DNA from: Natronorubrum texcoconense
GTDB taxonomy: Archaea > Halobacteriota > Halobacteria > Halobacteriales > Natrialbaceae
DNA length: 64,000 nucleotides
Assembly: GCF_900100335.1 (NCBI RefSeq)
Contig: NZ_FNFE01000001.1
Span: 868,001 to 932,000 of the forward strand
Direction: 5' to 3'
Shown here: one piece after another, positions 26,861 to 62,197 of the stretch
How the letters are laid out: the number at the start of each line of letters is the position of its first letter
How positions within the stretch are numbered: position 1 is the stretch's first letter
The notes under the pieces: model-generated
What the model was told of the DNA's origin: nothing
Seen by the model: the letters and a program-made list of their open reading frames with translations, nothing else
Database searches by the model: none
Made by a program: the position numbers and the translations under genes

Positions 26861-26946
26861 GCTCTCGGCTCCGGGGGCGAATAGCAAAAATCTTCTCGCT
26901 GGCGTCGAACGCGGACCGATTCGCCGACGCTCGCTCAGCCGTCGAG

Positions 26947-30189: not shown

Positions 30190-30213
30190 GAGAAGCGGCC
30201 ACCGGACGGCTCG

Positions 30214-37923: not shown

Positions 37924-39987
37924 ATGACACATAATCTCGGCGTTGACGTGGGTGGTACGTTTACGGACGTTATCGTCTTCGACGAAACGACCCACGAAAT
38001 CACGATAGACAAGGTTCTCTCGACGCCCAGTAATCCATCGGAGGGCGTGGTTCACGGGATCGAGGAGGCAACGGCAAAAGCGAACACATCGGTATCCGAA
38101 CTTGACCTCCTGTTTCACGGTACGACAGTCGTGACGAACATGCTCTTGGAGGAGACGGGGGCGCGCGTCGGACTCATTACGACTGCTGGGCACGAAGACA
38201 TCCTCCACTTGGCACGAGCGTGGACGCCCGGCCCACTCTATGGCTGGATGGACATGGAGAAACCGGATCCGCTCGCTGACCTCGTGGATACCCGAGGTAT
38301 AGCTGGTACGATCAGTTCACCAGATGGGAACGAGACCGAATCGCTCGACGAAGAAGAAATCAGAGATGCCGTCAAGGAACTCGAGGCAGCTGGCGTCGAG
38401 TCGCTGACCGTTGCGTTGTTGAACGCGTACCTCAATCCCGAACACGAAGAACGCGTCCGCGAAATTATCGCCGAAGAGGCACCGGAGCTTCCGGTATCGA
38501 TTTCCTCCGAGATCGTCCCGGAGTACGGTGAGTACGAACGGACGCTGACGACCGTCATCAACGACTACGCACGGCCAACGGTCATCGAGTATCTCGAGGA
38601 TCTCGACGACTCGCTCGCAGACGGTGATTCGACGGCCACGATGAACGTCGTTCGGTCCGACGGTGGGCTCATGAGTTCGAAAGCCGCCAAGGAGCGGCCG
38701 GTCGAACTCGCGCTGTCGGGACCCAGTGGTGGCGTCGTCGGTGCGGCGACCATCGCGTCGAAGAAGGGCGTTCCCGACGTATTGACGCTCGATATGGGTG
38801 GGACGTCGACTGACGTGTCACTCGTCGAAGACGGAACCCCTGAGACGACCCGCCAGACGAAGGTCGGCTATCGAGAATTCAAATCTCGATCGGTCGATGT
38901 GAACACGGTCGGAGCCGGCGGAGGCTCGATCGCCCGCGTGCAACTGAGCGGATCGTTACAGGTTGGCCCGGAGAGTTCCGGTGCCGACCCCGGGCCGGCG
39001 TGTTATGGCTTGGGCGGAGACGAACCGACTGTGACGGACGCGAACGTCGTCCTCGGTCGGATTCCGCCGAGTGTCCAACTCGGCGGCCGGATGGAACTCG
39101 ATAGAGAGGCAGCCCACGATGCTGTGGCGACAGTCGCCGACGAGCGTGGGACTTCGGTCGAGGAGGCCGCTCAAGCGATCCTCGACATCGTCAACGAGAA
39201 CATGCACAGCGCACTCCGCGTCGTGTCCGTCGAACAGGGCTACGATCCCCGAGAGTTCGGACTCGTTGCCTTCGGCGGTGCCGGGCCGATGCACGCTAAC
39301 GCGCTTGCAGATATCATGGACGCCTACCCCCTGATCATCCCACCGGGACCGGGCGTTATGTCGGCGTTTGGTTTCTTGACCTCCGACATCCAAAACGAGT
39401 TCTCGGAGACGTATCTGGAGACCGAGGAAGATGTCGACGGCGGGGATGTCTACGAAAAACTGCGGGATCTCGAGGCCGAAGCGACTGACTGGCTTGTCTC
39501 CGAAGGCGTCGACGAAACCGACCACGAGTTCGAGTACTTCGCCGAATGTCGCTACTTCCGCCAGGACATCCAGATGTCGATCCCGGTGACGATTGAGAAC
39601 CTCCGTGGCGAGACAGGGCTCGCAGAAATCAAAGGCGATTTCGAGAGCCGTCACGACCGCCAGTTCGGATTCTCGCTCGATGCACCGCTCGAGATTGCGA
39701 ATCTCCGCGTCATCGGCAAAGGAACGCTGCAGGGTGTTACTATCGAGGAACAGGAGCTGACAGATGCCGATCCGAGTGCCGCTGAGATCGACGACAACGA
39801 CGTGTACTTCAGCGGTGACACCTACGAGACGCCGATCTACGATCGCACCGAGTTGCGTCCGGGCAACGAGATCGACGGGCCAGCGATCGTCACCGACGAC
39901 GATTCGACAGTCGTCCTGCAGCCGGATCACAGTGCGACTATCGACCGCTACGGAAACATCGAGATTAACAGAGGTGAGGGTCAGTGA
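37924..39987 (+). CDS. hyuA: ATP-dependent hydantoinase subunit A
   Basis: This 687-residue protein has an ASKHA ATPase fold: phosphate-1 loop GVDVGGTFTDVIVFDE at the N-terminus, FHGTTVVTNMLLEE, and the second nucleotide loop TLDMGGTSTDVSLV near ~285. GPGVMSAFGFLTSDIQ and the C-terminal GPAIVTDDDSTVVLQP are typical of N-methylhydantoinase/5-oxoprolinase A subunits. With HyuB it hydrolyses a cyclic amide coupled to ATP. The stop overlaps the hyuB start in a GTGA. Confidence 0.93.
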   Translation: MTHNLGVDVGGTFTDVIVFDETTHEITIDKVLSTPSNPSEGVVHGIEEATAKANTSVSELDLLFHGTTVVTNMLLEETGARVGLITTAGHEDILHLARAWTPGPLYGWMDMEKPDPLADLVDTRGIAGTISSPDGNETESLDEEEIRDAVKELEAAGVESLTVALLNAYLNPEHEERVREIIAEEAPELPVSISSEIVPEYGEYERTLTTVINDYARPTVIEYLEDLDDSLADGDSTATMNVVRSDGGLMSSKAAKERPVELALSGPSGGVVGAATIASKKGVPDVLTLDMGGTSTDVSLVEDGTPETTRQTKVGYREFKSRSVDVNTVGAGGGSIARVQLSGSLQVGPESSGADPGPACYGLGGDEPTVTDANVVLGRIPPSVQLGGRMELDREAAHDAVATVADERGTSVEEAAQAILDIVNENMHSALRVVSVEQGYDPREFGLVAFGGAGPMHANALADIMDAYPLIIPPGPGVMSAFGFLTSDIQNEFSETYLETEEDVDGGDVYEKLRDLEAEATDWLVSEGVDETDHEFEYFAECRYFRQDIQMSIPVTIENLRGETGLAEIKGDFESRHDRQFGFSLDAPLEIANLRVIGKGTLQGVTIEEQELTDADPSAAEIDDNDVYFSGDTYETPIYDRTELRPGNEIDGPAIVTDDDSTVVLQPDHSATIDRYGNIEINRGEGQ

Positions 39988-41840
39988 GCAATTCAACACC
40001 AGCGTTCGTCGGCGAGCACGATGTCGATCAGACGACGCTCGATATTATCGAGAGTACGCTTTCGAATACCCGCGAGGAGATGGATCGGGTCGTCGAAACG
40101 ACGGCGATCAGTCCAGTCATCCGCGAACAGTCCGACCAGTTCCCGCTCATCGCAGATGCGGAGGGACGAATGGTCATGGGCCAGTTCGGTTCGGCGATTG
40201 ACACCATCCTCGAGAACTCGCCGTTCGAGCGCGAGGACCTCGAGGACGGCGACGTGATCGCGACCAACGATCCCTACATGTGTGCCGGTGCCGTCTCGCA
40301 CACGCCGGACATGCTCCTGTTGCGCCCGATCTTCTACGAGGACGACCTCGTGGGCTTCTCGAGCCAGTGGGGCAACCTGATGGACGTCGGCGGGAAGACC
40401 CCCGGCAGCATGCCCGTACAGGCGAGTACGATCTTCGAAGAGGGGATGCGACTGCCGCCGGTCAAACTCTACAAGCAAGGTGAGATCGACAGCGAACTGC
40501 TCCGCTCGTTCGCCCACAACACGCGGCTCCCCGAGCACGCAGAAGCCGACATCAAAGCGTTAGCTGCAGGGACGAAGGCCGCGGAGACTCGCGTTCACGA
40601 ACTCTGTGATCGCTTCGGCAAGGAAACGTACGTGGAAGCCTGCGATGCTATCCTCGACCGCACCCGGGACGGGATGGTCGACCTCATTCACGAGTTCATT
40701 CCTGAGGGCGAACGCTACACCTTCGAAGATTACGTCGACGACGACGGGATGGGCAACGGCCCGATCAAACTCCACCTCGAGATCTACCGGGAGGGAGAAA
40801 CGGTCTATCTCGACTGGACCGGTACGGACGAGCAGGTGCCGGGCACGGTGAACTTCCTACTGAACGAGAAGATGTTCAAAATGTTCACCGGGGTCTTCCT
40901 CATCATGGCGTTTGACCCGTTGCTCACGTTCAACGACGGCTACTACGATCTCTTCGAAGTGACCCTGCCCGAAGGGTCGGTTATCCAGCCGGAGTTCCCA
41001 GCACCGCTGGGGAATCGCCTGCCGCTTATGGCCCGGCAGTTCGACGTTCTGCAGGCGACCTTCTCGAAACTCATCGACGGATTTTCCGTGGCGGGCAGCT
41101 ACGGGACGTCGCCGAATCTCGTTTACGCAGGAACGGACTCGGACGGAAACGAATTCCAGATGCTCGAAATTCTCTACGGCGGTATTCCGGCCCGGCCGGG
41201 CGGTGACGGACTCGACGGTCACTCGTGGTGGCCGCTGTTCCGGACGGTCCCCGCCGAGTATCAGGAAGCCTACTACCCGCTAACGATCGACGAGTACAGC
41301 ACCCGCGCTGATACTGGCGGTGCCGGCGAGTTCCGCGGCGGTCACGGGATTACGAAGGTATACACTTTCGAGGAAGACGGTGCGATCACGTTCCAAGACG
41401 ACCGTGCACACACGTATCCGTGGGGCGTCGATGGCGGCAAGCACGCCCAAACGAGCGAGAAGAAACTGATTCGGGCCGATGGGACCGAAGCAGAGCTCCC
41501 ATCGAAAGTCGAAAACGTGGTCGTAGCGGCAGGTGACAAACTCGTCTTCAGCACCGCTGGTGGCGGTGGACTCGGAGATCCGCTCGAGCGCGAGGCTGCC
41601 GTCGTCGCCGAAGAAGTCGAACGCGGACTTCTCACCGAAACGGCTGCCCGATCGGACTTCGGCGTTGTCCTCACCGAGGACGGCACCGTCGACGAGGCAG
41701 CCACTGACGACCAACGCGATGAGATTCGGGCGAACCGTGACGGTCTCCAGAAGTTCGATTACGGTCCGTTACCGGACGACGAAACGCTCGAAGCACGTAT
41801 CGCCGACGAGCGCCGGGCGTTCGAGAATCGAAACAACTGA
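39984..41840 (+). CDS. hyuB: ATP-dependent hydantoinase subunit B
   Basis: This 618-residue hydantoinase B subunit has the conserved DVIATNDPYMCAGAVSHTPDM metal-site segment, GKTPGSMPVQASTIFEEGMRLPPVKL, the RADTGGAGEFRGGHGI loop and the C-terminal GGGGLGDPLERE. Start GTG 39984 overlaps the hyuA stop by four bases. The pair resembles N-methylhydantoin amidohydrolase and acetone/acetophenone-carboxylase-like enzymes; with an amidohydrolase next, hydantoin opening is the better guess. Confidence 0.93.
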   Translation: MSNSTPAFVGEHDVDQTTLDIIESTLSNTREEMDRVVETTAISPVIREQSDQFPLIADAEGRMVMGQFGSAIDTILENSPFEREDLEDGDVIATNDPYMCAGAVSHTPDMLLLRPIFYEDDLVGFSSQWGNLMDVGGKTPGSMPVQASTIFEEGMRLPPVKLYKQGEIDSELLRSFAHNTRLPEHAEADIKALAAGTKAAETRVHELCDRFGKETYVEACDAILDRTRDGMVDLIHEFIPEGERYTFEDYVDDDGMGNGPIKLHLEIYREGETVYLDWTGTDEQVPGTVNFLLNEKMFKMFTGVFLIMAFDPLLTFNDGYYDLFEVTLPEGSVIQPEFPAPLGNRLPLMARQFDVLQATFSKLIDGFSVAGSYGTSPNLVYAGTDSDGNEFQMLEILYGGIPARPGGDGLDGHSWWPLFRTVPAEYQEAYYPLTIDEYSTRADTGGAGEFRGGHGITKVYTFEEDGAITFQDDRAHTYPWGVDGGKHAQTSEKKLIRADGTEAELPSKVENVVVAAGDKLVFSTAGGGGLGDPLEREAAVVAEEVERGLLTETAARSDFGVVLTEDGTVDEAATDDQRDEIRANRDGLQKFDYGPLPDDETLEARIADERRAFENRNN

Positions 41841-41872
41841 GCAACGGACGAATACGATCAACCTACCACATC

Positions 41873-42508
41873 ATGGATTGGCCAACCGACATTGACGCCG
41901 GCTACGACGAGGACGACTTCGGGAAGAGCGTCGGCCTCGGCGACCGGCCCGCACTACTAGTTATCGATCTGATAAACGCCTTCACCGATCCCGATACCAG
42001 TCTCGGATCGGATGTTACCGACGTGCTCGAACAGACCGACCGCCTGCTCGAGTGCTTCCGGGAGCACGATCTGCCCCGGTATTTCACGACCGTAGCGTTC
42101 GAAGAGTCCTACGGCGATGCCGGACGATTCATCGAGAAGGTACCCGCATTGCGAGAGTTGCAACTCGGAACCGAGGCGGTCGAAGTGGACGATCGGATTG
42201 CACCCGTAGGTGACGAGCGAGTCATCCTGAAAAAGTACGCGAGTGCATTCTTCGGAACGGATCTGCAAACGGAGCTAACGACACAGGGTGTAGATACGCT
42301 CGTTCTCGCTGGCGTTACGACGAGTGGCTGTATCCGAGCAACGGCCGTCGATAGTCTCCAGCACGGCTACCGCACCATCGTTCCGGCCGACGCGGTCGGT
42401 GACCGCGCTGACGGACCACACCTAGCGAATCTCTACGATATCGACGCGAAATACGGTGACGTCGTGACAACTGATAGCGTACTCGAACACCTCTCAACCA
42501 ATGCATAA
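41873..42508 (+). CDS. Isochorismatase-fold amidohydrolase, N-carbamoylsarcosine amidase-like
   Basis: The 211-residue cysteine hydrolase has catalytic Asp in LLVIDLINAFTDP, Lys in VILKKYASAFFGTDL and the nucleophile Cys in AGVTTSGCIRATAVDSLQHGY. Family members include N-carbamoylsarcosine amidase, which removes the carbamoyl group formed when N-methylhydantoin is opened. It lies 32 nt after hyuB, supporting a sequential pathway: cyclic amide, then carbamoyl amino acid, then amino acid plus CO2 and NH3. Exact substrate is inferred from context. Confidence 0.85.
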   Translation: MDWPTDIDAGYDEDDFGKSVGLGDRPALLVIDLINAFTDPDTSLGSDVTDVLEQTDRLLECFREHDLPRYFTTVAFEESYGDAGRFIEKVPALRELQLGTEAVEVDDRIAPVGDERVILKKYASAFFGTDLQTELTTQGVDTLVLAGVTTSGCIRATAVDSLQHGYRTIVPADAVGDRADGPHLANLYDIDAKYGDVVTTDSVLEHLSTNA

Positions 42509-42571
42509 CCACGCCGACAACGACCGATCTCCATCGACACCGACTTCCACGGCTGCGCCGAGTGATTCGCT

Positions 42572-43519
42572 ATGACTGACGCCGGTGCAACACTGCGAGA
42601 GCGCCTCGAGCGTGACGAACTACTGACCTGTCCCGGTGTCCACGACCCGCTCACGGCCGGCGTTGCCGACGCCATAGGCTTCGACGCCATCTACATGACC
42701 GGATACGGGACATCACTCTCGAAAACCGGCTATCCCGATGCCGGTTTCATCACGATGCCGGAGATGATCGACAACGCCGCGAACATTCAGGAGCGGATCG
42801 ATGTCCCACTCATCGCCGATTCAGACAACGGGTACGGCAACGCGACGAACGTCGTCCGAACCGTTCGGGAGTACATCAAAGCTGGCGTTGGCGCCATCCA
42901 CATCGAAGACCAAACGTTCCCGAAGCGGTGTGGGCATACAAAAGGACGACAGGTCATCCCACGAGAGGAAGCAGTCGGAAAGATCGAAGCCGCCGCCGAC
43001 GTCCGAGACGACCGTGCTGAGGACTTCGTTCTCATCGCCCGGACTGATGCCCGTGGCACCGGTGATGGCTCGCTCGACGAGGCGATCAGTCGTGTGAACG
43101 ATTTCCTTGAAGTTGGCGCTGATATTGCGTTCGTCGAGGGGCCAACCGACGAGTCAGAACTCGAGCGCATCGGCCGTGAAGTCGACGGACCAATCATCTA
43201 CAACTTCGTCGGCGATCTTGGCTCCTCGCCGTACGTCGATCTCTCGTCGCTTGAGGAGTGGGGGTTCGACCTCGTTATATTCCCTATTGCCGCAACACTA
43301 TCGACCATCGCAAACGTCCACGCCGACCTAAGCGCTTTCGCCGAGGATCCAGTGGCGGCGATGCGGGATATCGATGACGAGTTCAACGAACAACCGGTCG
43401 GAAGCCTCCACGAGTTCGCCGGATTCCCTGAAGTCATTGAATGGGAGCGACGGTATCTTCCTGATGACGAGCAGAACAAATACGACGGCTCGTTAGGTGA
43501 TGACCCGGAGACTGAGTGA
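42572..43519 (+). CDS. Isocitrate lyase/PEP mutase superfamily enzyme
   Basis: This 315-residue TIM-barrel lyase has the superfamily metal site DSDNGYGNATNVVRTV and the catalytic-loop signature PKRCGHTKGRQVIP. IARTDARG and an IYNFVGDLGSSPYVDLSSLEEWGFDLVIFP-type region follow. It is related to 2-methylisocitrate lyase, oxaloacetate decarboxylase and carboxyvinyl-carboxyphosphonate mutase; the exact reaction is not readable. As last gene of the hyu cluster it may process the carbon skeleton. The 63-nt gap to the amidohydrolase allows one operon. Confidence 0.85.
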   Translation: MTDAGATLRERLERDELLTCPGVHDPLTAGVADAIGFDAIYMTGYGTSLSKTGYPDAGFITMPEMIDNAANIQERIDVPLIADSDNGYGNATNVVRTVREYIKAGVGAIHIEDQTFPKRCGHTKGRQVIPREEAVGKIEAAADVRDDRAEDFVLIARTDARGTGDGSLDEAISRVNDFLEVGADIAFVEGPTDESELERIGREVDGPIIYNFVGDLGSSPYVDLSSLEEWGFDLVIFPIAATLSTIANVHADLSAFAEDPVAAMRDIDDEFNEQPVGSLHEFAGFPEVIEWERRYLPDDEQNKYDGSLGDDPETE

Positions 43520-46577: not shown

Positions 46578-47039
46578 ATGTCGACACTACTTGTTCAATC
46601 CTGCTCGAAATCCAAAAAACAGACGCCTGAACCCATTTCTGCACTCGATTTGTACTCAGGCTACTTCTTCAAAATTATAAAAAAGTCGAGAAGAGAGGGG
46701 ACAGTGAACTCTGATATAGATATAGGAATTTTGTCTGCAAAATATGGATTCGTCAAAGCTAATGAAAAAATATCGGCATATGACCGCAAAATGGATACTC
46801 AGCGTGCGACAGAACTTGGGCCGACAATGAGGCAGCAGCTACACCAATATATATCTAACATGGGATATGAACGGGTCGTAATCAATGCTGGTAAAGAATA
46901 TCGTAAAGCGATTGACGGGTTCGACAATGATCTATCTGTCAATACGTACCACGTATGTGGTGATGGACTTGGCCTAAAAGGGCAATCATTGAAACAATTC
47001 CTGAGAGGAAATGAATCGGGTATCAAGAGAGCAAACTAA
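46578..47039 (+). CDS. DUF6884-like protein linked to the TGT paralogue
   Basis: The 153-residue protein starts MSTLLVQSCSKSKKQTPEPI. The pattern CSKSK, an aromatic helix, then IGILSAKYGFVKANEKISAYD matches DUF6884. It also recalls the core of archaeosine synthase ArcS, which has CSxSKPYS and a downstream LG(L/F)V...YD strand. ArcS acts on the preQ0 nitrile in tRNA, so a role in processing a preQ0-type base is plausible (inference). It is the first gene of a three-gene operon; its TAA shares a base with the next ATG (TAATG). Confidence 0.7.
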   Translation: MSTLLVQSCSKSKKQTPEPISALDLYSGYFFKIIKKSRREGTVNSDIDIGILSAKYGFVKANEKISAYDRKMDTQRATELGPTMRQQLHQYISNMGYERVVINAGKEYRKAIDGFDNDLSVNTYHVCGDGLGLKGQSLKQFLRGNESGIKRAN

Positions 47040-48277
47040 TGTCTAAGTCAATTATATCACCTGTCGATTTCGAAGTGACGTCGACAGCTGGCGATGCTCG
47101 AGCAGGGTTACTCTCGGTTGGAGAGACGGTTATTCAGACGCCAAATCTATTTCCTGTATTGAATTTTTACGGTGGTGGCACAATAAACAGCAACTACGGT
47201 GGTGGAATTCACCGAACTATCAAAGAGTTCCTGATAGGTCACAGCCGAGTTGACGGTGGTGATTACTCGAGGTTCTTTGATGGGGTGATGACGTCCGTTT
47301 CGTCGCTGACTGACTACAATATTACTCGAGAACGGTATGACGACTATGTTTCCCAGCCTGTCAAAGAACGCGACCTCTTCTCACCTTTTTCTGGAGCCTT
47401 ATTTATCGATTCTGGAGGATTCAAATTCCTCAGTAGCAAGGAACTCGACGGGAGCAATTTCCAAATCGAGATTGATCAAAAGAAGGTCTACGAGATTCAG
47501 CAGAAGATGGGTGCAGATATAATTGTCAACCTTGACCGACCGATTGCACCCGATGATACGCACAAACAACGTATCGAGAAAGCTCAGCAAACCGGGGCGA
47601 ACATCGCAAAGTTCCTCGAATTATCGTCTGACTTCCACGGTGCCCGATATCTAACACTTCATGGTTACAACTATTCCATGATGGATGAGTTTCTCACTGA
47701 GATCACCCGCTATACGAGCGCTGAAACGCTTCGGTCAGCTTTTGATGGAATTGCCTTAGGGAGTCTCGTTCCGAAAAAAGATGACCGGAACGCACTCATT
47801 GACGCCGTTATCGACTGTCGTGCTGTTCTCAAAGATTGGGGGTTCAAGGAACTACCGCTCCACGTTCTTGGAATCTCGAGCCGGGCGATCCCGCTTCTCG
47901 TCGCACTTGGAGTGGATACCTTCGACTCATCAACATACCTCCAAACCGCCATAAACGGTGGATATTGTACGTCATTGATGGAGACGGTAGACGTTTCCGA
48001 GGCAAATCCCGAACAGTGTGACTGTCCTGTCTGCTCATCAGAGCATCTGAAAGAGTGGATGAGAGGAAATGCACCCTATCAGAAAGACATGCTAGGGGCG
48101 GTTGCGATGCACAACTTAATAGTTCAAAAGCGAGCAATCTTTGAAATACGTGACCGAGTCAGACGTGGTGAAACTGAACCGCTAATTGAATACATCGAAT
48201 CAACCGTGGCGCAGGATAAACCAACGCGAGACCACGCGCACCGTGTTGTCAACCACTCACTTGGAGGGTACTTCTAA
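47039..48277 (+). CDS. dpdA: DNA-type tRNA-guanine transglycosylase paralogue, DpdA-like
   Basis: The 412-residue TIM-barrel transglycosylase has catalytic Asp124 in FIDSGGF and nucleophile Asp296 in GVDTFDSSTYL. The zinc site is Cys327, Cys329, Cys332 and His358 (CDCPVC, then MHNL); IQQKMGADIIVNLD and ALGSLVP are further TGT motifs. It lacks the C-terminal PUA domain of archaeal tRNA TGT and is shorter. Genes of this type (DpdA) insert preQ0 into DNA in bacterial Dpd clusters. Here it sits between a DUF6884 gene and a GHKL ATPase gene, with TAATG overlaps on both sides, and near dpdJ/dpdK-like genes. DNA, not tRNA, is therefore the likely substrate. Confidence 0.85.
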   Translation: MSKSIISPVDFEVTSTAGDARAGLLSVGETVIQTPNLFPVLNFYGGGTINSNYGGGIHRTIKEFLIGHSRVDGGDYSRFFDGVMTSVSSLTDYNITRERYDDYVSQPVKERDLFSPFSGALFIDSGGFKFLSSKELDGSNFQIEIDQKKVYEIQQKMGADIIVNLDRPIAPDDTHKQRIEKAQQTGANIAKFLELSSDFHGARYLTLHGYNYSMMDEFLTEITRYTSAETLRSAFDGIALGSLVPKKDDRNALIDAVIDCRAVLKDWGFKELPLHVLGISSRAIPLLVALGVDTFDSSTYLQTAINGGYCTSLMETVDVSEANPEQCDCPVCSSEHLKEWMRGNAPYQKDMLGAVAMHNLIVQKRAIFEIRDRVRRGETEPLIEYIESTVAQDKPTRDHAHRVVNHSLGGYF

Positions 48278-49842
48278 TGAAAAAGAATCCGAAAGTTAAC
48301 GAGGTTAATGAATTTCTCGAGATTGCCAGCGACTTCGAAGACCCACTCGAGGTGATCCGGGAATCACTATCGAACGCTTACGACGCGAATGCATCAACCA
48401 TCGAAATTGAAATCAGAAGCCGTGAAATGGGCTCTGATATCATCATCGACGACGATGGCGACGGAATGACCTTGCGTGATCTCGAGTCGTTTTTTGATTT
48501 AGGGAACTCACGAAAGACGGATTCGATCGGGTACAAGGGCCACGGTACGAAGATATTCTACAAGAGCGATCGCATCGTTGTTAATACTGCTTCTGATGAG
48601 GCGAATCTCCGCGCAGAGATGGACGAACCTTGGAAGAAGCTCAACCAAAGAGAGCTTCCACAGTATGAGGTGACCGAAACACCAGTTAGGAAAGGGAACT
48701 CCGGGACGAGGATTCGAATCCGAAACTTTCGATCCGGACAAGGGTTCGATCCGGAATCGCTCACCTATAACAAAATTGAACATTATCTGAAGTGGAAAAC
48801 GATCGCCGGATCAACGGCGTATCTGTTCGATGACGAGGACCGGGAGATGAACATCACAGTAAAGTTGGGTGACGAAATCGACGATTCCAGATCCAAACTA
48901 GAAACGACGACTCGGTTCGAATTCCCCGAGGAACAACTTGACCCCGACACGTCTTCGGAATTCCCAGCCGAGAGGATGTGTAAGCACTACGAGCCGACCG
49001 AAGTTGAGGTGGAACACGATGGTGGCACAGCGACATTACAGATAGTCGGCATGGTTGGTGGGAAGGCCGCCCGAAACGAACTGCCGACTTACGGTAAGCA
49101 CTCCGCACAGTTTGGTGTCTGGCTGGCGAAAGATCACATCAAGGTCGAGCGCCTGAATGAAGCGATTTCACACGACAACGAGTTCCTTCATTTCTTCTTC
49201 GTTGTCAACTGTCAGGATATCGAACTCTCAGCAAACCGGGAGTCGATTCGGAACAAATCCAGTTCTGTGTACCAGCGGCTCACAGAGGAGGCCGAATACT
49301 ATCTTTCGAAGGTTACCCAGGATCCGTGGTTCAAAGAGTACCTCGAGGTTCGTCGAGATGCCGAAATCAAGCGTCGTGCCCGAAACCGCCGGAGTTCATT
49401 GAAGGAACGTCGAGAACGCGTCGAATCAGGGCAATCGCTCGACCCAACCAATCGAACGGAGGTCCTGCTCGCACTCGAGCGCTTCAACGGTAAATCGGAT
49501 GCTTCGACGATTATTGTCGAGGATTTCGAACCCAGCGCCGATGTTCATGCAATAGTGAGACAAGGTGGTAAACTCAGAAACGCAGCTGTACATCATTCTC
49601 TAACGGATCACTTTGAGGATGATCTCACATTCGAAGAAGTTAATCTCATCATCTGCTGGGAGTATGGCGACCCCACAACGCTGCGTGAATATGAACGAAC
49701 GGGTTATCTTGGTGGCGAGATTGAATTTCAACTCGAAAGTAACGGGCTCGTTTACGAAGACGACGGACAGTCTTTCATCGAAATCCTCTGTCTGAATCAG
49801 GAGTCCGATGAAGTGACGCGGCAAGCGGTCATCAGCGACTGA
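48277..49842 (+). CDS. GHKL (HSP90-like) ATPase of the dpd-like operon
   Basis: This 521-residue protein has an N-terminal Bergerat-fold ATPase: N box RESLSNAYDANA (Glu29, Asn33), G1 IIIDDDGDGMT, and G2 GYKGHGTKIFY (~85-95). A transducer-like second domain (~220-310: HIKVERLNEAISHDNEFLHFF, VNCQDIELSANRESIRN) follows, as in HSP90/MORC/MutL-type proteins. Residues ~345-390 are a basic helix. The C-terminus (~400-521) is a restriction-endonuclease-like alpha/beta region with IICWEYGD. It may couple ATP to recognition of modified or unmodified DNA. I cannot match it to a lettered bacterial Dpd protein. Confidence 0.8.
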   Translation: MKKNPKVNEVNEFLEIASDFEDPLEVIRESLSNAYDANASTIEIEIRSREMGSDIIIDDDGDGMTLRDLESFFDLGNSRKTDSIGYKGHGTKIFYKSDRIVVNTASDEANLRAEMDEPWKKLNQRELPQYEVTETPVRKGNSGTRIRIRNFRSGQGFDPESLTYNKIEHYLKWKTIAGSTAYLFDDEDREMNITVKLGDEIDDSRSKLETTTRFEFPEEQLDPDTSSEFPAERMCKHYEPTEVEVEHDGGTATLQIVGMVGGKAARNELPTYGKHSAQFGVWLAKDHIKVERLNEAISHDNEFLHFFFVVNCQDIELSANRESIRNKSSSVYQRLTEEAEYYLSKVTQDPWFKEYLEVRRDAEIKRRARNRRSSLKERRERVESGQSLDPTNRTEVLLALERFNGKSDASTIIVEDFEPSADVHAIVRQGGKLRNAAVHHSLTDHFEDDLTFEEVNLIICWEYGDPTTLREYERTGYLGGEIEFQLESNGLVYEDDGQSFIEILCLNQESDEVTRQAVISD

Positions 49843-49943: not shown

Positions 49944-50396
49944 TTAGAAATCAGAACAGTGGATGTCGAGCTCTGTTTCAAGATACGCTTCGATACTTTC
50001 GTATTCGTTCTCGATGATCTCACAGAGTTCGCGGTTGAGAGAGAAGCCTCCTCGAGTGATGTTTGCAGACCCCATGTACACGTATTCGTTACAGATCACG
50101 GCTTTCGCATGGAGGTCGTCGAGTTCGATGAGGGTAATATGATCAGGCAGTCTGCGACGAAGATAGTTGTTGTGTGATTCACCCTTCTTAACGATGATCA
50201 TCACCTCCGTTTCTGGTAGCTGGTGGAGTGCCTTGGATAGACGAAGCGTACGGTCTTCGAGAGCGTTCGTCACCGGGAACTTGAGTTCAACATCGCTCAT
50301 CCACGGCGAAACGATTGCGACCCGTCGGGCATGGACGAGCGTGTACCCGATGAAATACGCGAGGCTGTTAGAAGTCAATGAAAACGCTTGTACCAT
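49944..50396 (-). CDS. dpdK: Phospholipase-D-fold protein, DpdK-like
   Basis: The 150-residue protein has one HKD-type motif: HAKAVICN (His96, Lys98), followed by GSANITRGGF. The expected aspartate of HxKx4D is Asn103 here. The N-terminal strand VAIVSPWMSD and VMIIVKKG complete the PLD core. DpdK in bacterial Dpd clusters is a PLD-fold protein of the restriction module. The gene starts inside the end of the dpdJ-like gene (29-nt overlap), so the two are co-translated. The Asn substitution may lower or alter nuclease activity. Confidence 0.75.
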   Translation of the reverse strand: MVQAFSLTSNSLAYFIGYTLVHARRVAIVSPWMSDVELKFPVTNALEDRTLRLSKALHQLPETEVMIIVKKGESHNNYLRRRLPDHITLIELDDLHAKAVICNEYVYMGSANITRGGFSLNRELCEIIENEYESIEAYLETELDIHCSDF

Positions 50397-54611: not shown

Positions 54612-55082
54612 ATGGGAGAACTTGCAACCCGGTACCAATCATATCTGTGTAATCAGTTTTCTGAATTATATCCCTCATTAGATTGGAAAACAGAACATAG
54701 AATTGCAGGTACCCCAGTTGACATTGCTGGTGTTGGAGATGGGATACTCCTTGTTATCGAATTAGAATGGCGCCGTGCCGACCCAGCGGATAACTCTGCC
54801 AAGCTTTTCCGACATTTAAGCACTGGACAGGTTGATCAGAATCACGTCACTGTCATCCAAATCTTCACAGGATATTACGATTTGGAGACTGGTGGAGTCT
54901 CATCAAAGAGAAAGAATGCAGAGTTCATCGGTCACATTGCAGAGGACGCAATTGATGCACTTTCCTATTACTCCGTTGACTTTGACCCTGAACCGCCAAA
55001 GCGAGGTGGCGATTGGGAGGAAGACTGGAAAGCGAGCGCAAAAGAAACTGTGTCTGCCATTTCTGAAAAAATCCGAACGTAA
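54612..55082 (+). CDS. Putative PD-(D/E)XK-fold protein
   Basis: The 156-residue protein begins MGELATRYQSYLCNQFSELY and has the arrangement TPVDIAGVGDGILLVIELEW (Asp37, Glu50, Glu52). This resembles the PVD...hhhxE-x-K/E core of restriction-like nucleases, with glutamate where lysine is usual. NHVTVIQIFTGYYDLETGG and a basic Ser/Lys stretch follow. It stands between the dpdJ-like gene and a second helicase gene on the latter's strand. A small nuclease partner of that helicase is the best guess. Confidence 0.55.
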   Translation: MGELATRYQSYLCNQFSELYPSLDWKTEHRIAGTPVDIAGVGDGILLVIELEWRRADPADNSAKLFRHLSTGQVDQNHVTVIQIFTGYYDLETGGVSSKRKNAEFIGHIAEDAIDALSYYSVDFDPEPPKRGGDWEEDWKASAKETVSAISEKIRT

Positions 55083-55188: not shown

Positions 55189-57696
55189 ATGAAAATCGGA
55201 GATATCGCAGACAACGTCACAGATCAATCAAGTCCCGGCGAGCTATTTCGAGACAACTGGTTAGGTTCGATTCCTGAGGCACAATGGCCCTCGTATATCG
55301 ACGAATCAGCTGATCTCCTTCAATACGGTATCGGAATAGGAGAAACTAACTTAACAAAGGCTGATTTTGCGAGTGAAACAGGTGAGTACTATCGAGAGGG
55401 CCTGGGAAAGTCGATGTCCGTAGACTACGAAGAGACGACGCTTCCCCTCGGCTACGTTTCCGGACGAAAAGTCGGACTCGTTGCGTGGATGTTGACGGAA
55501 CTTCAGCGCGAAATTCGTTCGTCAAAAACGACGAATTTTAAATCATCAAGTCGCGCTCTTGAAGCGATCGTGAACAAGGCTCTATTGCAGTCTTTCGAAG
55601 GCGATGACTCCCTCGACGCAAAAGGGATTGATCGTATTCGTCTGCCAAAAAGCGTTGCAGTCTCAGATCTCGTCTCTGAGATTTTCTGTCGGCCACGAAG
55701 TCCCCAGTACGTCGAGGCGATTGTCGAGGTTGCGACTGGGTACCGGCGTTCTACGAAAAGCCTCCTCGAGCTAGTCGAAGAGCCGCAAATGGTCACTCCA
55801 TTCTGGGAACACCAACGAAAGGCCCTCTCACGATGGCTCAAGAACGATTGCAGAGGATACGTGGATATGGCGACTGCAACTGGAAAGACTGTCCTCGGTC
55901 TCGGAGCAATCGCGCACCACTTCGGAAAATTACACCCCATTGATCGAGAACTCACCGAACCAAATTTGCAGCCGAGTGATCAACGAGGGACAGTTCTAGT
56001 CGTTGCTCATCGTACGGTAATACTCGAGCAGTGGAAACGCGAGTTCGACCATCGATTGAACATCCCGGAAGCGAGTACTACGACCGGCGGCGAAGAGACT
56101 GTCTCCTTCTCATGGGGGGATGTCCACTTCTGGACGCCGAAGCGCGTTCTCCAACGTGGCGTCCCTGACGCTGACCTCGTCGTACTCGACGAAACACATC
56201 ACTATCTGGGCGATAGTGGCTTTGGATCGATACTGAACGAGTTCGACGGCGACGTCGTCGCGTTGTCCGGCTCGATTGACGAAACGAATGCGCGGACACT
56301 AGAGCGTCGCAACATCGAGAAACTGCTTACCTTTACGCTGCGCGATGGACAGAGGGCAGGAATCGTCCCGCGCTGTGACTGGAAGGTACACCTCGTCCCC
56401 TACGAGGGACAGTCGGTTCTCACCGACGTGACTGAGCGTTGCCAGCAGGGTACCGAACGGTTCTCTGATGGCGGTCCCGAAGATGTAATGCAGGAGCTGG
56501 ATCGAGATCCATCCGAGGTCGCGTTCGAAACCCTCCACGAGGCTCGATCGGTGGTACAGTCTACAGCAGGCCGTGAGATCAAAAAGAAACATGACGGCTA
56601 TCGCGAGTTCTCATCGGCAGTGAAATCACGGAATTTGACGAAATACAATCTTTCTCCGGAGCTATCGGAGATTACGAACTTAGTCCTAGAGTCCGTTACA
56701 GATCACAAGTGCGTAGTGTTGCTCGAATCCGGGGATGAGATCGAAACCGTCGTATCGGGACTTCGCCGTGAACTCGGCGACGAGTTCGATGACTACATCC
56801 AAGTCGTTTGGGAGAGTGCGGACGATACGATCGAGGTCGTTCGTGAATTTGATGAAAACCAAAAGTCAGGGGCGATTATTGGGACGGCATCCGTTCTCGG
56901 AGAGGGTGTCGACATACAAACGGCGGACGTGGGGATCAATCGGGCCAGGGGTCGACTTAGTCGATCGTTAGTCCAACGCATGGGTCGTATCCTCCGAAAC
57001 CCAGATGGTGACAAGGAAGCGGAGTTCCACCACATCATGGGGATTCCCACCACAAGCACTGCTCTCCTCCCTCAGGAAGACGGGATCGAATTGCTCGAGA
57101 CGGCGAGTCAATTGTTAGCTTGGGGTTCATCGTTCGAGGCACAACCAACGTTCGAGACACGATCGGCGGATGTCGCCGAAACGATCTGGCAGCTCGAACG
57201 AGAGGGTGCAAACGCTATCGACGACCTAGCCCCGCACAATTATAGTTGGCCATCCGATCGTGAGGTTCGGTCACACCTCGAACAGCTGTGTGCGGACGCG
57301 ATTGACGCCGAATCGTCGGTTCTCTTGGCTCTCGAGGACACGAGCGAGTCTGTCTCTAGTTCTCCAGAAGAGAGCGCTCTAAACTTCGTCAGCGGTGTCG
57401 AGATGGAAGCAATCCCGATTGCCACGGATCTATGGAAGAAAGTATCGAGTACAGTCGCCGATAGCCGAAATTGGGACGATGAGCAAGAATTCGTCGCAGA
57501 GGCGATCAGGGAGCATCTTGACGAGATAGACACTCCCGATTTACCAGTGGTGGGCGAAGACGGGACCGAAGAGCCCAGATTTGTAGAACTGAATCCCGTT
57601 CTCTACGCAGTCGTTCAATCTAAAGTTGTAGATGGAGTCAATACCTCTACGATTGTCCGAGCGGCTGTAGAACGGGAATTAAGACTTGGGGAATGA
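55189..57696 (+). CDS. SF2 helicase/translocase of XPB/ResIII type
   Basis: The 835-residue ATPase has a ~200-residue nonconserved N-terminal domain, then FWEHQRKALSRWL (Q motif), Walker A ATATGKTVLGLG (GKT 232-234) and LVVAHRTVILEQWKREF. The DETH box is VVLDETHHYLG (334-337), and motif VI is SRSLVQRMGRILRNPDG (~625-640). The C-terminal 40 residues (LYAVVQSKVVDGVNTSTIVRAAV) look like a ribbon-helix-helix. Defence islands often contain such restriction-type translocases. It may power the small nuclease-like protein upstream or belong to the Dpd restriction set; no letter can be assigned. Confidence 0.8.
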   Translation: MKIGDIADNVTDQSSPGELFRDNWLGSIPEAQWPSYIDESADLLQYGIGIGETNLTKADFASETGEYYREGLGKSMSVDYEETTLPLGYVSGRKVGLVAWMLTELQREIRSSKTTNFKSSSRALEAIVNKALLQSFEGDDSLDAKGIDRIRLPKSVAVSDLVSEIFCRPRSPQYVEAIVEVATGYRRSTKSLLELVEEPQMVTPFWEHQRKALSRWLKNDCRGYVDMATATGKTVLGLGAIAHHFGKLHPIDRELTEPNLQPSDQRGTVLVVAHRTVILEQWKREFDHRLNIPEASTTTGGEETVSFSWGDVHFWTPKRVLQRGVPDADLVVLDETHHYLGDSGFGSILNEFDGDVVALSGSIDETNARTLERRNIEKLLTFTLRDGQRAGIVPRCDWKVHLVPYEGQSVLTDVTERCQQGTERFSDGGPEDVMQELDRDPSEVAFETLHEARSVVQSTAGREIKKKHDGYREFSSAVKSRNLTKYNLSPELSEITNLVLESVTDHKCVVLLESGDEIETVVSGLRRELGDEFDDYIQVVWESADDTIEVVREFDENQKSGAIIGTASVLGEGVDIQTADVGINRARGRLSRSLVQRMGRILRNPDGDKEAEFHHIMGIPTTSTALLPQEDGIELLETASQLLAWGSSFEAQPTFETRSADVAETIWQLEREGANAIDDLAPHNYSWPSDREVRSHLEQLCADAIDAESSVLLALEDTSESVSSSPEESALNFVSGVEMEAIPIATDLWKKVSSTVADSRNWDDEQEFVAEAIREHLDEIDTPDLPVVGEDGTEEPRFVELNPVLYAVVQSKVVDGVNTSTIVRAAVERELRLGE

Positions 57697-57725: not shown

Positions 57726-60452
57726 ATGCAACAACAGATGGAAAAGAACCTTTCAGCAGCAAAAAAGTACCATACTATAGCAAATTTATCCCATTATGTA
57801 TTTTTGTTCATACTGTTCGTGACTATTACAAGTGTAGTTATACCCGGTACCCCTTGGTGGCCGTTTGCAGCCCTTTCGGTCGGGGTCTTCCTGATTAAAG
57901 GAAAACTTACTAGTTTGAGAGATACTCACGCTAACCGTCTCCTCGAAAGCTGTGTGTCGAACTGCAATGAATTGACCGATGATACCGCCAAAGCTATCGA
58001 CAAAGAAGATATAACCACTGCTCGCCAGCGAGCTCGAGAGTGCGCAGAGACGGCAAGTAGAGTCGAAAAGCAGGTCTCCCAATTCAAGAAAAAAGACGGC
58101 TCGGACGAACAACAGCTGCAAGAGCTACGACATCATCACAAACGATCTACCAATCTAGTCGAGTTCCTTGACGAAAATCTGGAGGGGATACAGCAAGCAG
58201 TACGCAACCTAGAGCGCGTAGAGAAAGGGGCCAAAGAGGCCTATCAATTGCTCGCAGACGGGGAACTGCAAGCCGCATCTAACACATTAGATCAGTATCA
58301 GGGTGCACTACGAGAATTGCACGACCGACCCCCGCTCGCTGATCAGAAGGAACTGCATGGTCTCGACTCACAGATTGAAATGTTGATCGAGACCTACGAA
58401 ACACTTGAGCAACGTCTCGAGTTTACGCCAGTCGTCAAGCGGCTAGAGGGCGTACTCGCGGAAACCGATATCATCCGAAACAAACAGGGAGACCGTGTCG
58501 ATACCGATACTCTCCAGAATGCGGTTGAGCAGTTAGAAATAATAGAAGACGCTATCGAAGAGCCTGACCACGCCTTCTTTCTAATCAAGCATACTGAATT
58601 ATCCCTTCCTGAATTAGACGACGTGTCAGGAATTGGAAAGGGGTATCGCGCACGCTTAGAGAAGCATGGAATCTCCACACCAGAGGAACTGCATCAATCA
58701 AATTCGTTGACCGGTATAGATAGTATTGGTCGAAACCGCGCCAAACAGTTTCAGGAGGCTGCAGGACAGGCAGCTATCGACTGTATTTCTGATCTTCGCT
58801 CAGATTTGGAAGAGCGGATTGAACGCCGTGAGCAAGCTAGCAACCAGCTTACGTATGCGGAACGTCGCTACCGGATTGCATGTGACCATCTGGACCGCCA
58901 GTACTTCTCCGATGTAGACCAAGAGCTTACGAAAGCAAAGGAAGCACTCGAGTCGGTTCCGGCCTCAGGATTACAACCTGAGGAGCGTACACAGTTCGAG
59001 AAACTAGAGGCAAACATCGAGAAAAAGCGGGCGGAACTCCGGACGGAGAGACTCCGAAAGGAGTTCGAAGATGCATTAGACGAAATTGACACGTATATCG
59101 CCGAGGGGCGTACCGCGCTAGAGAACGAGTCATTCGATGCCGCGACGGGAAAATTCGGTTACGCTACACAGTGTTGTAATAATGCGAAAGAGATCACTTC
59201 CAAAGTGGACGACGGGGAGCAGGCGATCTATTCTCGACGAGAAAAGGTCAACGACCTGCTCGAGGAAACACGCAATCGCCGTCAAAAGCACCGTGTCTTA
59301 GATTCGATGTCAACTGCTGAAACACAAATCAGTGATGGAAACTACCGCGTCACTGACGGTTCGTTCTCCGAGGCGATAGAGAACTACAATGAGGCGATCG
59401 ATTACCTACAGCGGGCGCGTCAAACTGCAGAAGAGAACGAGTTGAGCTATACATGGGAAATCACCGAGCGACTCGAGCAGGTAGAGCAGTATCGCCACCA
59501 CGCGGTTCAAGAACGCGAACGGCAGCATGAGGAGAGGAGGGAGGAAGCAGTATACAAACTCGACCGTGCCGAACAGCTCATCGAGAAGGGGCATCAGCAT
59601 CTGGAGGTCGACGACGTCGATGCGGCGGTCGAATCACAGCAAACAGCCGCCACCCTCGTAACCGAAGCGACCGCATTGTTTGAGGAAGTCGATATCCTGG
59701 AAACTACCGAGCATCGTGATAGAATCGATACTCTCGATCAATCCGTCTCTCGGCTGGATTCATCGATAGATCAAACTGCAGAAGAGGCGTTGCAGGCCGG
59801 AGGTCCTAGCCGACAACAACTCATCCAGTATCTTCAGGACCTCGCAGTGATGTTCGATGAATCGCCGAGTGAGGATTTCATGAGAGAGTATGGGAAATAT
59901 TCTATCGACGAATATTATGCTGCATTTGGTTCCTGGACGGATGCGCTCAGAGAGGCAAACCTCTCCCCGATTGATCAGGCAGCTCGGAACCGACGGAAAT
60001 ATTCTCGAGCGGACATTCTTGATGCAGTCGTCGAGTTAGCAGAACAGCTCGGCCACAATCCCTCCCTAATGGAAATGAATCGGAAGGGCTCAATTTCGGG
60101 TACCACAGTGGGTACCCGATTCGGAGATATGGATACAGCCATCGAACTTGCAGGCCTGAAGGATGTCACCCTAGAATACTCTGAAACAGACATCGAGGAA
60201 GATACCAACGAAGAGGAGGTGACTGCGACGGTTACCACTGAACGAACTACGACTACGGCGGAACCGTCGGAGGCTGATCTCGAGGAGCTAACGGAAGTCA
60301 GCGGTGTCTTCCAATCAGATGCGGCTGCCCTCGCAAAAGATGGATACACATCGAGAGAGAAACTCAAAGAAGCATCTGCAGAGGACCTTCAGGCAATCGA
60401 CGGGATCGACATTCAACTGGCATTGCGGATCAAAGCTGATATTGAGGATTAG
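57726..60452 (+). CDS. Membrane-anchored coiled-coil protein with HhH and homing-endonuclease-associated repeats
   Basis: The 908-residue protein has two membrane helices near the N-terminus (~20-38 and ~44-58). A long charged coiled coil with TPR-like helices fills ~60-690. A helix-hairpin-helix pair lies within it at ~296-350 (VSGIGKGYRARLEKHGI, GIDSIGRNRAKQF). Two homing-endonuclease-associated repeats (~695-820: AAFGSWTDALREANLSP and ADILDAVVELAEQLGHNP) follow, then a C-terminal HhH (~850-908). It starts 29 nt after the helicase gene. Shared C-terminal domains with the next gene show duplication. It looks like a DNA-binding protein tethered to the membrane; its role is unknown. Confidence 0.78.
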   Translation: MQQQMEKNLSAAKKYHTIANLSHYVFLFILFVTITSVVIPGTPWWPFAALSVGVFLIKGKLTSLRDTHANRLLESCVSNCNELTDDTAKAIDKEDITTARQRARECAETASRVEKQVSQFKKKDGSDEQQLQELRHHHKRSTNLVEFLDENLEGIQQAVRNLERVEKGAKEAYQLLADGELQAASNTLDQYQGALRELHDRPPLADQKELHGLDSQIEMLIETYETLEQRLEFTPVVKRLEGVLAETDIIRNKQGDRVDTDTLQNAVEQLEIIEDAIEEPDHAFFLIKHTELSLPELDDVSGIGKGYRARLEKHGISTPEELHQSNSLTGIDSIGRNRAKQFQEAAGQAAIDCISDLRSDLEERIERREQASNQLTYAERRYRIACDHLDRQYFSDVDQELTKAKEALESVPASGLQPEERTQFEKLEANIEKKRAELRTERLRKEFEDALDEIDTYIAEGRTALENESFDAATGKFGYATQCCNNAKEITSKVDDGEQAIYSRREKVNDLLEETRNRRQKHRVLDSMSTAETQISDGNYRVTDGSFSEAIENYNEAIDYLQRARQTAEENELSYTWEITERLEQVEQYRHHAVQERERQHEERREEAVYKLDRAEQLIEKGHQHLEVDDVDAAVESQQTAATLVTEATALFEEVDILETTEHRDRIDTLDQSVSRLDSSIDQTAEEALQAGGPSRQQLIQYLQDLAVMFDESPSEDFMREYGKYSIDEYYAAFGSWTDALREANLSPIDQAARNRRKYSRADILDAVVELAEQLGHNPSLMEMNRKGSISGTTVGTRFGDMDTAIELAGLKDVTLEYSETDIEEDTNEEEVTATVTTERTTTTAEPSEADLEELTEVSGVFQSDAAALAKDGYTSREKLKEASAEDLQAIDGIDIQLALRIKADIED

Positions 60453-60769
60453 AAGAGGATGTCGAACTTCACTTTCGGAGCCGATGTCCGATCACGGATG
60501 AATTTCGGGTACAGGAGGGAATATTTAACCGTTTCTGAGATAGACATCTACCGTAATCAAATTCAACTGTCTCCATGATAAGACCGCCGACTCTCATATT
60601 GTTGCATCTAACGAGTATCCGAAGCCAACCAAAGCGGGAGCTTTTCGGATCGACTTCGGCACGTCTACTAACGGATGGAGGGCATAAACTCACGGAACAA
60701 CAGGATGGAGAAGACGTAGAAGAAGTTGGTGGGTTCGTCTTTGGACAGGTAGAAGACAGAGCCAGTTTC
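60453..60769 (+). promoter_or_regulatory. Upstream region of the DUF5797-fusion gene
   Basis: 317 bp. GAATATTTAACC at ~60,518-60,529 is a good TATA box, predicting a transcript start near 60,548. A frame in phase with the next gene is open from ATG 60575, so the protein may have 65 more N-terminal residues than annotated, or the message has a ~220-nt leader. No other gene is seen. Confidence 0.45.
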
Positions 60770-62197
60770 ATGAGTGATCGCCCCTCAAAAGAAGAGACCA
60801 TTCGGAACGAGAGAGACGGTCTTTCAGAGGCAAACTTGAGCCGCTTAGCAGACATCGTCGAACTCCAGCCAACGAAAAATAAAGAGCTCCAAGAGAGATG
60901 GGAGTTCGATTCCGGGAGCGAAGTACACCAGTATCTCGAGTCGGAGCTCAAACAGTATTATTACCGTGATGAGAGTAGCCTCATCCGCGTGACTGATGAG
61001 GCGGAACAGCTTATGAACGAAAATGACCAATCTCGGGGATCAGCGGGCCAAGATACGTCCGGTGAGGTGTCCACTTCATCTGGTTCGAGACCTTCCACTA
61101 ACGAACCCGTTGACCTACAAGACCGTAATCTCATTATCGCACTAGTTGGTCTTGCTCAAGAGTTAGGTCGTCTTCCAACAGCAAGCGACGTCAACGAGCG
61201 GTGCGAGTACTCTCATCAACAGTATCGTGAAGTGTTTGGATCGCTTGTTGGTGCGTACAAGCGAGCCGGTCTCATTCCAGAAGACACCTCAGAAGCGGAA
61301 CTCACAGCACATACTACAGCACAATCGTCGAACGAGACCGAAAGAGAGAGGAAATCAGCTTCAGACAGTTCCCCATCTAGCTCTGTCTCTCCGGATCAAG
61401 AGGGAGGCAATAAAAGAGAAGGAAAAGTATCCCAACCCCCTGCTGCATCCGGCACACTCGAGGAACCGGCTACACAGGAGCAGACGAAGGATGACGATAC
61501 ACGCTCACTAGAAGTAACTCAAGGCGACCTCGTCCAGGAGATTCAGCGCTTTGCGGAGATTATCGATGAACCGCCAACTGAACCGTTGGTCACCGCTTAC
61601 GGCGAGTACGAACCGACGGCCTATGAAACGGTTTTTGACTCGTGGAATCAGGCACTCGAGGAAGCTGGCTTTGATCCTACAGATGTGCCGGATTGGAGCA
61701 ATCGAAAGTACACGAACACGGGAATCCTCGATGCGATTTCGAACTTGGCGGAGAAGCTTGGGCATCCACCGACGACAACTGAAATGAACGAGCACGGAGA
61801 CGTCACTGGTGGGATTGGCTCCCTTCGGTTCGGGTCGTGGGCTAACGCTATCAGATTTGCAGGTTTTGAGCCTAACGAGCGACCTTCAGTCCAAAAGGGC
61901 ACGGCTGCCAGCAGTGGTTCACATGATCGGTCTGGAAGTCCCACAGCTGATAGCGGGAGTTCTAATGAGGCGACGACTGCTACCTCAGTGTCTACGGACG
62001 CTAATACCGAGGTTGAATCGAGCCTAGAGGAACTAACAACGATCAGCGGTGTACTCGAATCAGATGCAGTCGCTCTCGCTGAGGCAGGGTATACCTCGAG
62101 AGAGGCATTAGTAGAAGCCTCTGTCAACGATCTCAAAGAGATAGATGGAATCAGCCTTCAGCTTGCGTTACGAATCAAAGCCGATGTTGAGGAATAG
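60770..62197 (+). CDS. DUF5797, homing-endonuclease-associated repeats and HhH fusion protein
   Basis: The 475-residue protein has DUF5797 at ~12-85 (LSRLADIVELQPTKNKELQE, SGSEVHQYLESEL). Repeat 1 is at ~121-175 (LAQELGRLPTASDVNER), repeat 2 at ~255-305 (FDSWNQALEEAGFDP) and repeat 3 at ~318-370 (ISNLAEKLGHPPTTTEMNEHG). The C-terminal HhH is at ~418-475. Linkers are Ser/Thr/Glu-rich. Repeats 2-3 plus the HhH are clearly related to the end of the 908-residue protein. Start ATG 60770 fits the usual DUF5797 start; an upstream in-frame ATG at 60575 is possible. DNA binding is likely. Confidence 0.75.
   Translation: MSDRPSKEETIRNERDGLSEANLSRLADIVELQPTKNKELQERWEFDSGSEVHQYLESELKQYYYRDESSLIRVTDEAEQLMNENDQSRGSAGQDTSGEVSTSSGSRPSTNEPVDLQDRNLIIALVGLAQELGRLPTASDVNERCEYSHQQYREVFGSLVGAYKRAGLIPEDTSEAELTAHTTAQSSNETERERKSASDSSPSSSVSPDQEGGNKREGKVSQPPAASGTLEEPATQEQTKDDDTRSLEVTQGDLVQEIQRFAEIIDEPPTEPLVTAYGEYEPTAYETVFDSWNQALEEAGFDPTDVPDWSNRKYTNTGILDAISNLAEKLGHPPTTTEMNEHGDVTGGIGSLRFGSWANAIRFAGFEPNERPSVQKGTAASSGSHDRSGSPTADSGSSNEATTATSVSTDANTEVESSLEELTTISGVLESDAVALAEAGYTSREALVEASVNDLKEIDGISLQLALRIKADVEE

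Follow-up and report, generated by a model that had tools for sequence, protein, structure and literature searches.

A short DpdC-like protein of family DUF6884 next to a transglycosylase in a haloarchaeal island: a candidate for preQ0 conversion in DNA

In the genome of the haloarchaeon Natronorubrum texcoconense, a gene for a DUF6884 protein of 153 amino acids (aa) overlaps the start of a transglycosylase gene, which raises the question of what so small a protein may do beside an enzyme of this type. The window analysed here is a 64,000-nucleotide stretch of contig NZ_FNFE01000001.1 (positions 868,001 to 932,000; G000:C2:868001-932000) of the 4.64 Mb genome, and the open reading frame in question lies at 46578-47039. 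It belongs, as a short protein that stands alone, to the superfamily of DpdC, YaaA and the ArcS core. We consider it probable, at roughly 60%, that this short DpdC-like protein acts as an enzyme on the nitrile of preQ0 in DNA and forms part of an archaeal version of the Dpd modification-restriction system.

A small protein related to ArcS, DpdC and YaaA

The open reading frame is a real gene. It starts with ATG, and the motifs that had first drawn attention to it lie at C9-S-K-S-K13 (CSKSK), residues 50-59 (GILSAKYGFV) and residues 67-69 (AYD). Their key residues are invariant in 28 of 28 orthologues, from the window and 27 further haloarchaeal loci, and the motifs are thus beyond chance. There are 24 invariant columns in all, including C9, S10, K13, Y26, S53, A54, G57, Y68, D69 and M72 as well as Y97, Y108, G128, G132, G135 and K139. 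The gene is under purifying selection: nonsynonymous divergence (dN) from the Natrinema salsiterrestre copy is 0.147 against a near-saturated synonymous divergence (dS) of about 2.0, and two Halorubrum copies gave a dN of 0.032 against a dS of 0.25. Pfam places the protein in DUF6884 (PF21818; 54.9 bits, E 1.4e-14, above the gathering score of 30), a family matched by all 25 orthologues scanned (E<=0.1).

The original prediction held that these motifs recall the core of ArcS, and fold and profile comparisons bear this impression out, although the protein is not DUF5591 (the ArcS core) by the Pfam cut-off (14.9 bits, below the gathering score of 26; E 0.025). An AlphaFold2 model (19 sequences; predicted local distance difference test score, pLDDT, 92.2; predicted template modelling score, pTM, 0.88) retrieved 2q07 (AF0587) first from the PDB in a Foldseek search (6.4e-5) and Escherichia coli YaaA (5caj) second (2.4e-3). 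With VIA, 2q07 scored Z 10.9 over 121 residues at 3.0 Å, 5caj scored 9.8 and the next match 6.9. The PDB entry of 2q07 reads "unknown function"; because its chain matches the host ArcS (L009:9432-11189) across core and PUA (9.4e-43) and the ArcS cores of the fusions described below (9.5e-19), we identify it as an ArcS core plus PUA. The nearest solved fold is therefore that of ArcS, and not the unrelated one that had been named as telling against the prediction. Searches of solved structures by sequence returned only 3hlz (E 1) with P0001 alone, and 2q07 at E 0.24 with A1.

Set against a profile of 20 ArcS cores in hhalign, the profile of 25 DUF6884 orthologues gave E 1.3e-5 over 126 columns and aligned the C-x3-K, S-x2-YG and YD/YE motifs and the YR helix. 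Controls reached at best 0.0053 in 40 column shuffles and 0.011 in nine unrelated families. DUF5591 itself is matched by 8 of the 25 orthologues (Pfam, E<=0.1; best 1.1e-5). Unlike ArcS, the DUF6884 protein retains only C-x3-K of the motif PC-x3-KPY-x2-S found in the host ArcS and the fusions, the PY-x2-S part being missing, and Pfam found no PUA domain in its 153 aa.

The protein is also related to DpdC. In PADLOC it matches DpdC models (1.5e-5 and 5.8e-5) and the candidate family PDC-M57A (4.3e-13); DpdC model PDLC02818 is matched by 24 of 25 orthologues (<=0.01, best 6e-8) and PDLC02815 by 21 of 25. Comparison by hhalign gave E 2.5e-5 against two bacterial DpdC proteins, both of which have the C-x3-K motif, and 5.7e-13 against the DUF6884 domains of transglycosylase fusions. 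The gene directly upstream of dpdA on Enterobacter cloacae pPOL9A encodes DpdC (PADLOC 6.2e-142) with a weak Pfam DUF6884 match (6.2e-5), and DUF6884 is the Pfam domain given for dpdC in a survey of dpd islands (PMC11888242). The homologous N-terminal core shared with DpdC includes C-x3-K, LY(x)G, SA(G)xG and a region PY/YD, and both proteins are encoded next to a transglycosylase. Unlike in DpdC loci, the protein here has half the length, no DpdB lies nearby and the overlapping transglycosylase falls outside the known DpdA models. The suggestion that the protein takes the place of DpdC thus stands as to position; as to kind it needs amending, because the protein is itself a DpdC relative and hence a short DpdC-like protein, not an unrelated substitute.

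The value of a DpdC match as a specific sign of a Dpd system is weakened by controls: among four DUF6884 proteins that do not adjoin a transglycosylase match, two also weakly match DpdC (best 2.1e-4 and 0.032). One of these two, L019:853-1302, is a weak control because the DUF6884-transglycosylase pair of an orthologue begins only 0.7 kb downstream of it. Direct comparison of DpdC and ArcS-core profiles gave no support (E 0.068, with two DpdC sequences only). The link between DpdC and ArcS runs via DUF6884; a search of solved structures with one DpdC returned no match. As a separate observation, a DpdC relative is encoded on plasmids in 2,921 records, the majority of them conjugative and enterobacterial; most of the matches listed show about 39% identity across 72% of the query, and DUF6884 is the usual annotation.

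For YaaA (DUF328, PF03883), the Pfam score is just below the gathering score (27.6 against 29.6 bits, E 2.5e-6), and the model is matched by 25 of 25 orthologues. The fold match to 5caj points the same way, although at 261 residues YaaA exceeds the 153 of the protein here.

Two transglycosylases in one island

The genes for the DUF6884 protein, the transglycosylase and a GHKL ATPase follow one another in this order on one strand in 28 of 28 loci, with a spacing of -98 to +4 nucleotides between the first two. The operon structure first read from a TAATG junction is present in the window, where the TAA stop (47037-47039) and the transglycosylase ATG share one base. A separate scan of named genomes, several of them shared with the 28-locus set, found the trio in 18 of 18 loci; Halorubrum coriense, Halorubrum lipolyticum and Haloplanus ruber are among the culturable carriers. 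All 28 stand-alone transglycosylases retain six columns (D, D, C, C, C, H), made up of the catalytic Asp pair and a Cys3-His set for zinc.

Associations of the same kind are found elsewhere. On Haloferax alexandrinus plasmid pBNX82-4, a 964-aa bacterial-type DpdA (PADLOC 2.8e-74) has a C-terminal DUF6884/DpdC domain and adjoins a 344-aa transglycosylase, with a QueD-type gene near; similar proteins of 967-1059 aa with a DUF6884-like C-terminus occur in five genomes (L067-L071, Pfam having been run on L067 only). A 656-aa protein of Deinococcus taeanensis is a DUF6884::TGT fusion followed by genes annotated as dpdE, dpdF and dpdH. In these proteins DUF6884 is physically joined to a DNA-type transglycosylase, albeit one of another subfamily and by fusion instead of gene overlap. 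On a phage contig (L104), a DUF6884 gene lies 11 bases upstream of a DpdA gene (product 35% identical to E. cloacae DpdA, 2.8e-71). The predicted partnership with a DpdA-type transglycosylase is thus upheld by the 28 loci, by fusions and by an independent phage pair, even though the partner in the window can be called DpdA by context only.

A second transglycosylase lies about 29 kb downstream of the first, on the same contig and in the same island. It has 662 aa and is fused to a true ArcS core (TGT 8.3e-25, DUF5591 1.1e-21, motif PCSQKKPYSES), and its neighbours include genes for a 1576-aa helicase and a 973-aa ATPase, along with some smaller ones. The ArcS cores of 23 of 23 such fusions retain PC-x3-K. 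The fusion occurs in 26 of 286 genomes, 25 of which have a DUF6884 orthologue; put the other way, it is present in 25 of the 27 orthologue genomes in this set and in 1 of the other 259 (Fisher p 1.6e-32, ignoring relatedness). Only G055 and G208 have the orthologue without the fusion, and inclusion of G292, from outside the set, with a fusion in locus L058, brings the total to 26 of 28. The fusion is located outside the 20-kb stretch in G003, G191 (seen in L186) and G251. The genome with a fusion and no DUF6884 orthologue, G141, has a divergent 357-aa neighbour (VDSGGY motif) and DpdJ.

Pairs such as QTRT1/QTRT2 offer a parallel for a complex with one dead transglycosylase partner. We rejected this arrangement on the six columns named above, which are kept in every enzyme compared, whether stand-alone (28 of 28) or fused (23 of 23); the test is weak and does not prove activity, because the host ArcS keeps the same columns. 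Related arrangements were seen in other loci. A Haladaptatus plasmid locus (L073) has two transglycosylase::ArcS-core fusions (26737-28701 and 29415-31436), and at L076:5799-9807, L072:5711-9762 and L185:8802-11914 a transglycosylase fused to a nitrile-type domain is paired with a second stand-alone transglycosylase or TGT-like protein, the assignment in L185 being by motif only. A search of viruses with the ArcS core gave one partial relative, and the window transglycosylase had three weak matches in phages.

The layout of two transglycosylases with two nitrile domains appears to be new. A literature search that did not reach most subscription papers found no archaeal Dpd system and no TGT-ArcS fusion acting on DNA. 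The survey of dpd islands required dpdAB and lists bacterial phyla only (PMC11888242); haloarchaeal islands would be missed by such a survey because of that requirement. BREX-related capture (BRC) systems resemble the present loci in having a TGT in archaeal and bacterial defence loci. They differ in that their authors report no DpdB or DpdC homologue (PMC12839542), whereas a DpdC-like gene is part of every locus here.

Proposed conversion of preQ0 in DNA and its alternatives

We infer that the trio acts on DNA, where the transglycosylase would swap guanine for preQ0. Genes for QueC, arcTGT and ArcS are present in the genome, and preQ0 should be available because the host has QueC and arcTGT. 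The DUF6884 protein, after or jointly with the transglycosylase, would then attack the preQ0 nitrile. By analogy, Cys9 could form a covalent thioimidate with assistance from Lys13 and Asp69/Tyr68; the invariant Cys-x3-Lys common to the relatives suggests such an intermediate. Water would then free the amide (dADG); DpdC is reported to do the same, hydrolysing dPreQ0 to dADG (PMC12839542). ArcS is described as adding lysine to preQ0 nucleosides with no need of tRNA structure (PMC11298593), so that a core of this type acting on DNA is chemically plausible; the two reactions alike target the preQ0 nitrile. An amide seems likelier than an amidine as the product of the DUF6884 protein, because an ArcS core is already there as the second-transglycosylase fusion. 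The GHKL ATPase, whose structural model is poor (pLDDT 68, pTM 0.48), is a possible stand-in for the DpdB ATPase and might supply the ATP-driven step assigned to DpdB in bacteria. The mark would label the cell's own DNA, and the DpdJ/DpdK-like proteins and a second helicase/ATPase module would attack unmarked DNA. The DpdJ and DpdK homologues in the window, together with DpdJ plus phospholipase D (PLD) or helicase/ATPase modules in other loci, may point to restriction.

A wider version of this proposal, which we advance only tentatively, is that two transglycosylases with two different nitrile-processing domains mark haloarchaeal DNA, one fused to an ArcS core and the other translationally coupled to the DpdC-like DUF6884 protein, with the GHKL ATPase replacing DpdB and the archaeosine chemistry of tRNA recruited for self/non-self marking. 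Acting as a heterodimer or in sequence, the two enzymes would give archaeosine-type and amide-type (or mixed) 7-deazaguanines in DNA.

Several observations weigh against a DpdC-like role in DNA. At 153 aa, the protein reaches roughly half the size of full-length DpdC (about 300 aa; about 316 aa for DpdC in the comparison here) and lacks its full architecture, and its two best DpdC matches span 60-69 residues, at model positions 44-108 of 312-319 only. The partner transglycosylase has no PADLOC DpdA match at 0.1, its nearest solved relative is arcTGT (1iq8, 4.1e-18), and in a tree whose branches are long it groups on the side of archaeal arcTGT. A genome-wide search with PF14072 gave no DndB/DpdB-type protein. 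Most DUF6884 proteins have no transglycosylase close by: of 208 viral loci found, the best 80 were examined, and 75 of these have no TGT, QueC, QueD or QueE BLAST match in the stretch examined, and the genome's second DUF6884 gene has no transglycosylase in 18 kb and adjoins a C5-methyltransferase-like gene. The authors of the Pfam family take DUF6884 as a DNA-binding or repair domain (PMC11701544).

This last view leads to the best surviving alternative, that the DUF6884 protein is not an enzyme on preQ0 and instead gives the transglycosylase its specificity, as a subunit that binds DNA and flips bases; YaaA and YfjM likewise bind DNA. The YaaA fold match, the YaaA model hits in all orthologues, the strict one-to-one pairing with the transglycosylase and the lesion or base recognition proposed in the same Pfam paper would all suit such a subunit. 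We nevertheless think it unlikely, as Cys9 and Lys13, invariant here and retained in 23 of 23 ArcS cores of the fusions, with C-x3-K present in both DpdC proteins too, look catalytic.

It is less likely still that the protein acts on the free base, turning preQ0 into another 7-deazaguanine ahead of insertion by the transglycosylase. In three near-identical phage contigs (L179, L181, L182), a cassette for preQ0 synthesis has a DUF6884 gene flanked by queE and queC, and for Gat-QueC it is reported as unsettled whether conversion comes before or after insertion (PMC6884629). However, ArcS and DpdC are reported to act on preQ0 already within nucleic acid (PMC11298593, PMC12839542), and the transglycosylase fusions fit either order. 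The cassette as a whole (L182:1822-7116, also in L179 and L181) reads queD-queE-DUF6884-queC-230-aa protein-folE-460-aa protein; the 230-aa protein is amidotransferase-like by eye and the 460-aa protein has a DSGG motif, neither with a Pfam family.

A role in tRNA modification, which would make the module a second pathway of the archaeosine type, is very improbable despite the kinship of its transglycosylase with arcTGT and archaeal TGTs, since arcTGT and ArcS are already in the host, the neighbours are DpdJ/DpdK-like and other defence-type genes, and both the scattered distribution (42 of 391 class genomes) and the low-GC island fit defence better.

Island, distribution and significance

We return to the setting of the proposed DNA-marking trio (Table 1). 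GC content is 45-55% around the locus, whereas the window's first 36 kb has 61-68%; the contrast suggests that the island was acquired. Among 293 genomes of the order, 46 match the DUF6884 protein at E <= 0.001 and 28 at E <= 2.6e-24, its own genome counted; a profile search of the 391 class genomes set the 42 apart (E <= 1.8e-45; next single match 4.3e-17), and the seven other genomes of the same genus that were listed lack it. On two Natrinema thermotolerans plasmids (CP031298.1 29710-30452 and NZ_CP101874.1 84926-85668), a 76% identical DUF6884 gene precedes a stretch that matches the transglycosylase over its initial 94 residues alone; these copies may represent a decayed locus in which DUF6884 was kept.

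Table 1. Features of the window and of two further stretches of the same genome
Feature	Position	Strand	Evidence
DUF6884 / short DpdC-like protein, 153 aa	46578..47039	+	Pfam, PADLOC, invariant motifs, predicted fold
412-aa transglycosylase of the TGT family, called DpdA by context	47039..48277	+	Pfam TGT 5.1e-28
GHKL (HATPase_c_3) ATPase, 521 aa, third of conserved trio	48277..49842	+	Pfam 3.7e-12
PLD-type nuclease, DpdK-like	49944..50396	-	PADLOC DpdK 1.3e-11; Pfam PLDc_2 4.5e-8
DEAD/DEAH helicase, DpdJ-like, 1362 aa	50368..54456	-	PADLOC DpdJ 3.5e-43
156-aa protein, no Pfam/PADLOC family match	54612..55082	+	recurs in 4/28 loci, window counted
ResIII/DEAD-type helicase, PbeA-like	55189..57696	+	PADLOC PbeA 1.8e-24
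Transglycosylase::ArcS-core fusion, 662 aa	L007:12350-14338 = G000:C2:944353-946338	-	TGT 8.3e-25; DUF5591 1.1e-21
Second DUF6884 protein, 298 aa	L008:8655-9548 (C1:50002), 60-kb contig	-	beside a C5-methyltransferase-like gene

Within the stretches examined, 8 of 28 loci have DpdJ plus PLD, and 13 of 29 stretches (the 28 loci plus L007) have a second helicase/ATPase module; by this count, 11 of 28 loci have neither. Beyond DpdJ and DpdK, PADLOC gave no good match to other dpdD-K genes among the proteins scanned. Relatives of the PbeA-like helicase occur in 4 of 28 loci, the window counted, and its part in the system is uncertain. Just ahead of the low-GC island, at 37924-43519, are a hydantoinase/oxoprolinase-like pair and isochorismatase-like and lyase-like genes, assigned by eye. 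The genes at 57726-60452 and 60575-62197 code for two proteins in which HNH-associated repeats occur along with helix-hairpin-helix domains, and relatives of these recur close to several loci. A GmrSD_C / Orf5-like protein (L007:141-1643, PADLOC 3.3e-58) lies between the two transglycosylase gene groups.

If the proposed function is correct, haloarchaeal chromosomes bear 7-deazaguanine marks made by the archaeosine toolkit, and DUF6884, a large family so far taken as DNA-binding, would gain a testable preQ0 reaction. The reading also places DpdC, YaaA, DUF6884 and the ArcS core in one superfamily, within which a Cys-x3-Lys site is common to DpdC, DUF6884 and the ArcS core.
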